DNA of 41,539 nucleotides from a virus. Below are positions 1,468-13,506 of the stretch, in pieces (position 1 is the stretch's first letter; each line of letters opens with the position of its first letter). Both the position numbers and the translations under genes were made by a program. The stretch spans positions 1-41,539 of IMG/VR virus record IMGVR_UViG_3300021375_000062; one strand, given 5' to 3'. The notes under the pieces were generated by a model. That model had not been told where the DNA came from and made no database searches. It worked only from the letters and a program-made list of their open reading frames with translations.

Positions 1468-1905
1468 ATGAAAAACTTCGACTTAAGAAAATATTTAGCA
1501 GAAGGTAGATTATATGAGGCAGCAATGGCTTGTCCTACTGCTACTCAAAATTTAGAGTTAAACACTAAAAATCGAGATGCTTCAATTAAAGCTGATTACA
1601 TTAAATATGGTCCATTAAATGTAGATGAACCTGGAGATTATTGGGAAGAATTAGCTGAATATTGGGATACAACAGAAGAAGCTGCTAAAAAAACACTTTG
1701 TGGTAATTGTGTTGCTTTTGATATTTCACCTAGAATGGATGAATGTATGCCTGGCAAAGTATCAGATGGTGATGGTAGATTAGGATATTGTTGGATGCAT
1801 AACTTTAAATGCCATTCAGCTAGAACTTGTAGAACTTGGGCTAAAGGTGGTCCTATCACAGAAGATAGTATATCTTACGATTGGCAAGAAAGAAAAGAAA
1901 ATTGA
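1468..1905 (+). CDS. HiPIP-like Cys-rich protein with capsid-targeting-like N-terminus
   Basis: A protein of 145 residues. The N-terminus (MKNFDLRKYLAEG) resembles the capsid-targeting sequence of the T4 internal proteins (MKTYQEFIAEA), with an L-A-E gp21-type cleavage site at residues 10-12. The C-terminal half has C78-x2-C81, C93 followed by M-P-G-K, G-Y-C108, C115 and C121. The spacing CxxC...C-x-PGK...G-aromatic-C resembles high-potential iron-sulfur proteins, which bind a 4Fe-4S cluster. Seeing the Cys pattern is direct; iron-sulfur binding and packaging into the head are inferences. It overlaps the next gene by 25 bases. Alternatives are a zinc-binding fold or a disulfide-rich structural protein. 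Confidence 0.8.
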   Translation: MKNFDLRKYLAEGRLYEAAMACPTATQNLELNTKNRDASIKADYIKYGPLNVDEPGDYWEELAEYWDTTEEAAKKTLCGNCVAFDISPRMDECMPGKVSDGDGRLGYCWMHNFKCHSARTCRTWAKGGPITEDSISYDWQERKEN

Positions 1906-2165
1906 AACCCTACACAGACATAGAAGTTACAGATGAATATATTATTCGTGAATTTGGAGATAATATAGATCCAATTGAATTAATGTGGCATCGTGATAAT
2001 GAAGATAGAGTAGTTGAAATTATAGGTGAAACAGATTGGATGTTACAACTTGATAATAGCTTACCTACCTCCATAAAAGAACGTATATTTATACCTAGAC
2101 ATCAATGGCATAGAGTCATTAAAGGAACAGGAACCTTAAAATTAAAAATAAATAAAAATGAATAA
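1881..2165 (+). CDS. Small cupin-like protein
   Basis: A protein of 94 residues. After a basic start there is a pattern of short beta-strands with W-H-R-D at 36-39 and F-I-P-R-H-Q-W-H at 70-77, ending in V-I-K-G-T-G. The histidine, glutamate and I-P-x-x-x-x-H pattern fits a single-domain cupin barrel that could hold a metal ion. The start at 1881 lies inside the previous gene (25-base overlap) and is the only one giving a full-length fold; the next Met is at residue 35. It overlaps the following microprotein by eight bases. The substrate is unknown. The call rests on motif shape only. Confidence 0.65.
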   Translation: MARKKRKLKPYTDIEVTDEYIIREFGDNIDPIELMWHRDNEDRVVEIIGETDWMLQLDNSLPTSIKERIFIPRHQWHRVIKGTGTLKLKINKNE

Positions 2166-2226
2166 ATGTGATTGTAAAGCATGCAATTGTGGAATATCAT
2201 GTAAATGTTCTTGTTGCGATTGCTAA
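2158..2226 (+). CDS. 22-residue metallothionein-like Cys-rich microprotein
   Basis: A tiny reading frame of 22 codons. Its ATG lies within the last codons of the upstream cupin-like gene (ATGAATAA overlap), which is typical of translational coupling. Nine of the 22 residues are Cys, in the pattern CxCxxCxCxxxCxCxCCxC, with Lys, Asp, Asn, Ser and Gly between them and no aromatic residue. This is the composition of short metallothioneins, such as fungal copper-binding ones, so tight binding of soft metals is likely if it is made. It is the last gene before a terminator hairpin. It is too short for statistical proof of coding; the Cys pattern and the coupled start are the evidence. Confidence 0.6.
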   Translation: MNKCDCKACNCGISCKCSCCDC

Positions 2227-2262: not shown

Positions 2263-2283
2263 GATTAAAATAAACTTAACATG

Positions 2284-2322
2284 GATCTGTAGCCCAAATA
2301 TTTGGATTACAGATCTTTTTTT
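2284..2322 (+). terminator. Intrinsic terminator closing the Cys-rich gene block
   Basis: GATCTGTA at 2284-2291 pairs with TACAGATC at 2308-2315. The inner part is itself self-complementary (CCAAATATTTGG at 2294-2305), and seven T follow at 2316-2322. It separates the Cys-rich genes from the FAD dehydrogenase gene, so the latter probably has its own promoter in 2323-2351, where I see no copy of the recurring late element. Confidence 0.8.
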
Positions 2323-2351: not shown

Positions 2352-3704
2352 ATGCAAGATAAAATAGTAATTGTAGGAGCAGGTGTAGCAGGTGTTAATG
2401 CTGCTACTAAGTTAGTAGATAATGGTTATCCTGGAGAACTAATAACTATTATTGATATGGGTAAAGATCCATATAATAGAAAATATTCCGAAGTAATGGA
2501 AGGCTTTTTAGGAGCTGGTGGTTGGAGTGATGGTAAACTAACTTATCATACTTCAATTGGTGGTCAATTAAGTAAATATTGTGGTGAAGATAAAGCAATG
2601 GAATTATTTGATCAGGTGATAGATAATTTTAAACGTTTCCACCCTAAACCAGAAGAAGTACAATGTTCGGACCCTCAAGCAGAACCAGATTTTATTAAAC
2701 CTTATTTTGGGTTAAGATTATTTCCTGTTTGGCATATAGGTACAGATTATCTACATGAAATAGGTAAAAATTGGTATGATTTTTTAGTTGATGGTGGTGT
2801 TAAATTTATTTGGGAGAGTAAAGTACAAAACATTTCATTTGAAAATAACCATTTAGAATATGAAGAAATGCCTAATAAAGGTGTTGGGGGTTATATTGAT
2901 TATGATAAACTAGTATTTGGTGTAGGTAAATCAGGTATTGACTTTGGTAAAAAATTAGCTGAACAATATAAACTACCAACTGAACCTAAACCAGTACAAA
3001 TAGGTGTTAGGTTTGAAGCACCCCAAAAACACTTCCAAAAATTAATCGATGTATCCTATGATTTTAAATTATATAGAAAATTTGAAGACAAAGGTGTATC
3101 GCTTCGCTCATTCTGTACAAATAACAATGCAGCCTATGTAGCTGCAGAACATACTTATGGAGATATAAGTTATAATGGTCATGCTAAAAAAGATGAATCC
3201 TTTAGAAATAATATGACTAATTTTGGTATCTTAATGGAAATTAAAGGCATAGATAAACCCTTTGATTGGGCAAGAGAAGCAGTTAAAAAACTACAAATAG
3301 ATGGTAAGGGTACATTTTTCTCCCCATCAAAACGAGTACCATCCAAAACATCTGAGGGTGTTTATGTTGAAACTGAAGTAGTAAATAGTCTCCAACCCCT
3401 ATATGATGCTATAGGTGACTATGCTCTCTTCATTGAAGATTTTATTGAAGATATGAAAAAAGTATTTCCAACATTAGGTAATGATTGGGGTGTTTATATG
3501 CCCGAAGTAAAATATCTTTCACCTGAACCATTAGTAGATTATAAAGATCTTGGGCTTACAACTTATCCTAACGTACATTTCGTAGGTGACGCTTTAAGTG
3601 CAAGAGGTATAACAGTCTCAGGAGCACAAGGAATATATGTTGTAGAAGCGATATTAAATGAAAAATTAGAATCAGAAGAATATTATAAACAAATCCAATC
3701 ATGA
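2352..3704 (+). CDS. FAD-dependent dehydrogenase, COG2509-like
   Basis: A protein of 450 residues beginning with a beta-strand and the dinucleotide-binding motif G-A-G-V-A-G at 9-14 (GxGxxG). The middle has Y-D-K-L-V-F-G-V-G-K-S-G-I followed about 25 residues later by K-P-V-Q-I-G-V-R-F-E, which matches the arrangement in COG2509-type NAD(FAD)-utilising dehydrogenases. Near the end, V-H-F-V-G-D-A precedes S-G-A-Q-G-I, the usual C-terminal FAD contact. The substrate is unknown for most of this family. No phage structural role is known, so it is best read as an auxiliary metabolic gene. Its stop overlaps the next start (ATGA). It looks full length and intact. Confidence 0.85.
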   Translation: MQDKIVIVGAGVAGVNAATKLVDNGYPGELITIIDMGKDPYNRKYSEVMEGFLGAGGWSDGKLTYHTSIGGQLSKYCGEDKAMELFDQVIDNFKRFHPKPEEVQCSDPQAEPDFIKPYFGLRLFPVWHIGTDYLHEIGKNWYDFLVDGGVKFIWESKVQNISFENNHLEYEEMPNKGVGGYIDYDKLVFGVGKSGIDFGKKLAEQYKLPTEPKPVQIGVRFEAPQKHFQKLIDVSYDFKLYRKFEDKGVSLRSFCTNNNAAYVAAEHTYGDISYNGHAKKDESFRNNMTNFGILMEIKGIDKPFDWAREAVKKLQIDGKGTFFSPSKRVPSKTSEGVYVETEVVNSLQPLYDAIGDYALFIEDFIEDMKKVFPTLGNDWGVYMPEVKYLSPEPLVDYKDLGLTTYPNVHFVGDALSARGITVSGAQGIYVVEAILNEKLESEEYYKQIQS

Positions 3705-12895: not shown

Positions 12896-13506
12896 TGAAT
12901 AAACAAATATTAATAGAAACCCAAAACTTTACAACATCAACTGTATCTTTAACTGAAGGTAAAATGTCCGAACGGGGTAACCCTACTGTTGAAGGTCTTT
13001 TAGCTACTGCTGAAGTTAAAAATGGTAATGGGAGATACTACTCAGAACAACTTTGGAGGAGAGAGATAGACAAATACATGGAGTCTGTTAAAGAAAACAG
13101 AGCTTTAGGAGAATTAGACCACCCAGAATCTTCAATTATTAACCTAAAAAATGTTTCTCATAATATTACAGATATTTGGTGGAATGGAAATAAAATAATG
13201 GGTAAAATAGAAATTTTACCTACCCCTTCAGGAAACATCCTTAAATCGCTACTTGATAGTGGTATTATGGTTGGTGTATCATCTCGAGGAATGGGTTCAT
13301 TGAAAGAAACCGATGGTGTATTAGAAGTACAAGATGACTTTGATTTGCTATGTTGGGATTTTGTTTCAACCCCTTCAAATCCAGGATCATGGATGTCACC
13401 CCTTAAAGAAGGAATAGATTATTCAAACCTTCCCCATCCATACAAAAATGTGCAAAATATTATAACAGATATTTTATGCTCACAAGATAGATGTCCTATA
13501 TTCTAA
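12895..13506 (+). CDS. gp21: Prohead maturation protease (T4 gp21-like)
   Basis: A protein of 203 residues, close to T4 gp21 (212). It is the serine protease that cleaves scaffold, capsid and internal proteins after (L/I)-x-E. It has L-G-E-L-D-H-P-E-S (catalytic His) and V-G-V-S-S-R-G-M-G-S (nucleophile Ser), followed by a D-F-D-L-L-C-W-D-F-V-S-T-P-S-N-P block typical of this family. Residues 13-22 include S-L-T-E-G, a possible self-cleavage site. The start codon overlaps the upstream stop (TAATG). A terminator hairpin follows about 30 bases after the stop. Confidence 0.95.
   Translation: MNKQILIETQNFTTSTVSLTEGKMSERGNPTVEGLLATAEVKNGNGRYYSEQLWRREIDKYMESVKENRALGELDHPESSIINLKNVSHNITDIWWNGNKIMGKIEILPTPSGNILKSLLDSGIMVGVSSRGMGSLKETDGVLEVQDDFDLLCWDFVSTPSNPGSWMSPLKEGIDYSNLPHPYKNVQNIITDILCSQDRCPIF

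Follow-up and report, generated by a model that had tools for sequence, protein, structure and literature searches.

An unannotated family of ultra-short, nine-cysteine, metallothionein-like peptides encoded by phages of marine Flavobacteriia

Among the small genes of marine phages we describe a family of ultra-short (20-24 aa) metallothionein-like peptides that has so far escaped annotation. The peptides are encoded by phages of marine Flavobacteriia, and they probably constitute a mobile cassette whose product forms a metal cluster that buffers or stocks metal late in infection. The window analyzed here, i.e., the whole stretch of 41,539 nucleotides, is a viral record of the IMG/VR type that carries T4-like head and packaging genes. 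An initial annotation, made from the letters alone, had pointed to an open reading frame (ORF) of 22 residues with nine cysteines at positions 2158-2226; the ORF is present and its Cys pattern is as claimed. The encoded peptide, MNKCDCKACNCGISCKCSCCDC, contains Cys at 9 of 22 residues (41%), arranged in C-x-C, C-x-x-C and CC motifs. The features of the region are as follows.

1902-2165, plus strand: cupin-fold gene upstream of the peptide gene, probable TTG start at 1902, stop overlapping the peptide start by 8 nt
2134-2157, plus strand: A-rich translation initiation region of the Bacteroidota type, with A at -3, -6, -12 and -13 and no Shine-Dalgarno sequence
2158-2226, plus strand: gene of the nine-Cys metallothionein-like peptide, 22 aa, recognized by its ORF, family conservation and selection
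2283-2322, plus strand: intrinsic terminator-like hairpin and T-run, 3' of the peptide gene
2352-3704, plus strand: downstream gene of an FAD/NAD oxidoreductase (phrog_12409), often but not always found next to the peptide gene

The peptide ATG is located inside the last 8 nt of the cupin-like gene (TAA at 2163-2165) in a different frame. The overlap on which the initial annotation based a coupled start is thus confirmed, and it makes translational coupling to the upstream gene plausible. The product of that gene is a real cupin fold as judged from its AlphaFold model (pLDDT 91.8) and the matches of the model to cupins in the PDB. Further upstream (1468-1905) the window encodes a 145-aa Cys-rich protein with CxxC motifs, which is highly conserved among these phages, at up to 92% identity between non-identical relatives, and has no significant match in Pfam or PHROG. 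The nearest isolate relatives of the downstream oxidoreductase, unannotated gut contigs aside, are found in Campylobacter phages at approximately 26% identity.

The evidence that the ORF is a gene comes mainly from its relatives. The initial annotation had proposed searching related phages for conserved Cys spacing and codon-level purifying selection, and had named frameshifts or stops in the relatives, or the lack of a translation signal, as evidence against its reading. We collected 240 loci by similarity to three neighboring genes, a procedure blind to Cys content, and found the peptide in 19 different forms (22 at the nucleotide level, the window included), with the nine Cys identical in all of them. 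When the same 240 loci were searched with a frame-blind nucleotide profile, 22 intact variants and no disrupted copy were detected, so neither frameshifts nor stops interrupt the frame in these relatives. IMG/VR was then scanned for the Cys pattern and artefacts were removed (variant counts are lower bounds), which gave at least 97 distinct peptide cores in related viral contigs sharing one spacing, C-x-C-x2-C-x-C-x3-C-x-C-x-C-C-x-C. Each core has an in-frame ATG and a stop at the last Cys or at most two codons beyond it. The 970 non-Cys positions of the cores listed (at least 97) include a single aromatic residue (Phe) and two His. No ORF with only seven or eight of the nine Cys was found in the viral loci, and two complete IMG/VR scans for peptides in which Cys 5 or Cys 7 is missing recovered no family member: the matches were low-complexity or antisense, and the single match within the family (locus L310) comes from an overlap within its own repeat of two modules. 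The L310 peptide (position 13230, minus strand) has 36 aa and 13 Cys in two modules, apparently because the first half of the motif was duplicated. In another locus, L296, a cupin (602-853) and a nine-Cys peptide (536-592), both on the minus strand, lie in one frame as an apparent fusion; it was set aside as evidence because an A-run is one base shorter there, which could be a sequencing error.

At the codon level, purifying selection is concentrated on the cysteines. In the loci collected without regard to Cys content, pN at the Cys codons is 0, with TGT and TGC exchanging freely, and pN/pS of the non-Cys codons is 0.87 (0.68 in the full set). Mild residue preferences are visible as well, with N or D after the first Cys and before the last one, and G and S in the loop. 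Selection therefore appears to see the Cys scaffold plus these mild preferences. When the window was simulated 200 times with a second-order Markov model, a nine-Cys ORF (up to 40 aa) never arose, and the maximum of 7 Cys was reached in two of the runs. Taken on sequence evidence, the ORF is a real, selected gene rather than a chance ORF.

A translation signal is also present, in the A-rich form without Shine-Dalgarno that is typical of Bacteroidota. Among the 112 peptide starts listed, A occurs at -3 in 88%, at -6 in 75% and at -13/-12 in 87-89%, and only one start carries a Shine-Dalgarno-like site. The same A positions drive initiation in Flavobacterium johnsoniae (PMC6847099). When the four key A's were used as a start-context score, the peptide reached 3.39, compared to 2.17 for 40 genes of the window and 1.33 for other ATGs, which suggests that the peptide may be highly expressed.

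As judged from their genes, the carriers of the family are T4-like flavophages and at least one unrelated podovirus, and their hosts are marine Flavobacteriia. Among cultured phages, the capsid protein of the window phage comes closest to that of Flavobacterium phage immuto (58.8% identity), whose genome, scanned in full, lacks the peptide. A tblastn search of the peptide against INPHARED gave no match, which is weak evidence of absence, for the low-complexity filter may mask a Cys-rich query. Eight of nine large viral records match the family profile, seven of them with one match and L310 with two motifs in one ORF. The carrier of the other phage type (L503, IMGVR_UViG_3300045135_000662, GC 0.42) has a terminase and a portal protein related to those of Cellulophaga phi18:3-like and Flavobacterium phages; since this phage type is unrelated to the T4-like carriers, the gene appears to have moved between phage families. 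In cellular genomes, profile searches yielded one match in 396 genomes of the order and one in 395 of the phylum (in both cases the query genome itself), and two in 299 genomes at the family level. The two cellular copies, MDCNCKSCDCTKSCDCTCCNC (from a Cryomorphaceae MAG) and MDCNCKSCNCNNSCDCSCCDC, are located on contigs with cellular-looking genes. Cellular copies are thus very rare by this measure, which relies on the profile searches because the matches listed by a pattern scan of the genome contigs were mostly poly-Cys antisense artefacts.

The neighborhood of the gene varies among the carriers. The gene found most often immediately 5' of the peptide is the cupin gene with overlapping stop (23 of the 112 loci listed); a GTA-type holin and a number of other unrelated genes come after it in frequency. 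Immediately 3' of the peptide, the FAD oxidoreductase gene ranks first (26 of the 112), ahead of genes for a zinc-ribbon-like protein, structural-looking proteins and Peptidase M15; an FAD oxidoreductase gene lies within 3.5 kb of the peptide in 48 of 113 loci listed. No metal-responsive regulator was noticed among the neighbors. Because some loci had been collected via the cupin and FAD genes, the contexts found by pattern only give the fairer figure: 65 of the 91 listed adjoin neither a cupin nor an FAD oxidoreductase gene, and 74 of the 91 have no FAD oxidoreductase directly downstream. With such varied neighbors, the peptide gene acts as a cassette of its own within regions of late genes, and the suggestion of the initial annotation that it loads metals into the neighboring Cys-rich and cupin-like proteins is unsupported as a general rule. 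In many loci the next gene begins 3-14 nt downstream.

Other small Cys-rich products were noticed on the way. A second family of tiny Cys peptides (e.g., MKKLICNIIYYITFKQVCLGYCKK and MKKWICELVCKLSFGKICLQWCDIKCCR) takes the place of the nine-Cys peptide at the cupin stop, which it overlaps; it is found just after the cupin gene in L015, L030, L034, L036, L040, L070 and L071, and also in L196. L238 and L240 encode a hybrid of 34 aa, MKRFICDLVYALSFRNICFGWCGSKIKCDCNCNC, in which a peptide of this second type continues into a CxCxCxC tail. Two viral proteins of 880-917 aa (L588, 8326-8475; L611, 11043-11099) contain Cys-rich repeats of the DCEPCDCC type and are unrelated to the peptide.

The peptide has the general features of metallothioneins: it is very small, more than 25% of its residues are Cys, it carries C-x-C, C-x-x-C and CC motifs with few aromatic residues or His, and selection is focused on Cys. 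As predicted in the initial annotation, it has been missed by annotation: there is no PHROG family for 59 members at E≤10, no NCBIfam match, and no significant match in Pfam. The closest Pfam model is Metallothio_2 (PF01439), matched by 13 of the 59 members with a best E of 0.54, below the curated cut-off; no other Pfam model, those of SmtA/BmtA included, was matched by the 59 members at E≤10. Wheat Ec-1 (2kak) gave a weak profile match (E 6.3), and phmmer of the 22-mer against the PDB gave none. The library resemblances are thus exclusively to metallothioneins but insignificant, and by these comparisons the family has no significant homology to known metallothionein families. The peptide is metallothionein-like by anatomy and a member of no tested metallothionein family. 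A literature search, in which subscription journals were thinly covered, found no report of phage metallothioneins.

The M3Cys9 cluster recurs among metallothioneins (PMC10612145). In the animal beta-domain and wheat Ec-1 betaE, which hold such a cluster, nine Cys likewise cluster, in C-x-C and C-x-x-C motifs, within a short segment poor in aromatics; those domains are parts of larger metallothioneins, whereas the phage peptide is free-standing at 20-24 aa, differs in spacing and is viral. SmtA-type metallothioneins share the N-terminal CxCxxCxC with the phage peptide. The bacterial SmtA/BmtA and Pseudomonas PflQ2MT are, like the phage peptide, small Cys-rich proteins of bacterial cells, and the SmtA type also has nine-Cys clusters. 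In contrast to the phage peptide MNKCDCKACNCGISCKCSCCDC, which has no His, is much shorter and matches none of their Pfam models, these proteins bind metal via Cys and His in a zinc-finger fold (PMC10612145, PMC7387436). In its ultra-short size, CxC repeats and predicted single cluster the peptide is similar to the copper metallothioneins of fungi, but it has nine Cys rather than seven, contains CC, is spaced differently and is encoded by phages. Those fungal proteins, of the Neurospora crassa type, are about 25 aa long with 7 Cys.

Four other explanations were weighed. That the ORF is non-coding or arose by chance might be argued from its shortness and from the lack of a family in any library; with frame, Cys and stop invariant in at least 97 variants, no disrupted copies, codon-level selection and a strong start, the conservation data contradict this explanation, which is extremely improbable and was rejected. 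Alternatively, the ORF might be a Cys-codon leader peptide, whose translation would register the charging of Cys-tRNA and thereby control a terminator and a gene lying 3' of it. Mycobacteria are known to have polycysteine attenuator short ORFs of this kind (Canestrari 2020, as cited in PMC9094748); like the phage ORF they are very short and Cys-rich, and some of them lie before a terminator and then a redox gene. In the window and some 25 relatives the order is peptide, terminator, FAD gene; this FAD-adjacent layout, seen in a minority of loci, is reminiscent of leader-peptide attenuation. The hairpin of the window has a stem of 10+4 bp followed by the T-run (MFE -22.9 kcal/mol, z -5.05); a simple consensus terminator scanner made no call at 2283-2322. 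A scan upstream of the FAD genes, run with low-complexity masking off, showed that 24 of 25 loci with the peptide at this place have a terminator, as do 106 of 137 that lack the peptide. The initial annotation was therefore right that a terminator-like hairpin follows soon after the peptide, but the element belongs to the region upstream of the FAD gene rather than to the peptide gene itself. Furthermore, of the 85 listed peptide loci where the FAD gene is missing, 69 lack a terminator within 140 nt, and the close spacing of the next gene in many loci (3-14 nt, as above) also speaks against a leader. An attenuator would need neither the invariant Cys spacing nor the G/S preferences and absence of aromatics, and the phage peptide differs from the mycobacterial ORFs in its fixed spacing, diverse downstream genes, usual lack of a terminator and strong A-rich start within an operon. 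A leader function, which we consider unlikely, would be at best a local use.

The frequent FAD oxidoreductase neighbor could also indicate a thiol/redox or persulfide carrier that partners this enzyme instead of storing metal. The association comes partly from loci collected via the FAD gene, a redox partnership cannot explain most of the peptide contexts because most have no FAD gene downstream, and nine clustered Cys with CxC and CC are typical of metal-thiolate clusters; such a carrier is quite unlikely. A tiny, Cys-rich ribosomal product with variable residues between fixed Cys would also suit a RiPP precursor or a crosslinked or disulfide-bonded bioactive peptide, such as a phage antimicrobial or toxin. 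No maturase, protease or exporter family of the RiPP type was found among the frequent neighbors scanned (several of which have no Pfam match), the peptide has neither a leader region nor a signal peptide, and its contexts are too variable; an odd number of Cys also excludes full disulfide pairing. We regard this explanation as very unlikely. A set of invariant, closely set Cys that is odd in number (nine), in a peptide that lacks an export signal, is better matched by a metal-thiolate cluster than by disulfides.

We propose, for the metal-cluster reading, that the cassette is inserted among late genes and would be made with them, the peptide being translated from its own strong A-rich start, aided in the window phage by coupling to the cupin gene. 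In the reducing cytoplasm the nine Cys would be kept as thiolates around a single small cluster, of which M(II)3Cys9 (Zn or Cd) and Cu(I)-thiolate are the likeliest forms. The peptide may then buffer or sequester zinc or copper freed as the infected cell is dismantled, or else stock metal for late phage metalloproteins; we favor zinc or copper buffering over such a supply, though the data do not separate the two. A bolder possibility, which we put forward only tentatively, is that these are the smallest genetically encoded metallothioneins known, widespread in phages of marine Flavobacteriia, and that this autonomous single-cluster cassette crosses phage families and controls the Zn/Cu pool of the cell late in infection, an undescribed host-takeover function.

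Gene callers overlook a widespread and strongly selected phage gene family here, and a search by Cys spacing recovers such genes. If the peptide binds metal, its 20 or so residues would offer a minimal natural model of a metal-thiolate cluster, and one could test directly whether phages target metal homeostasis when they infect abundant marine bacteria.
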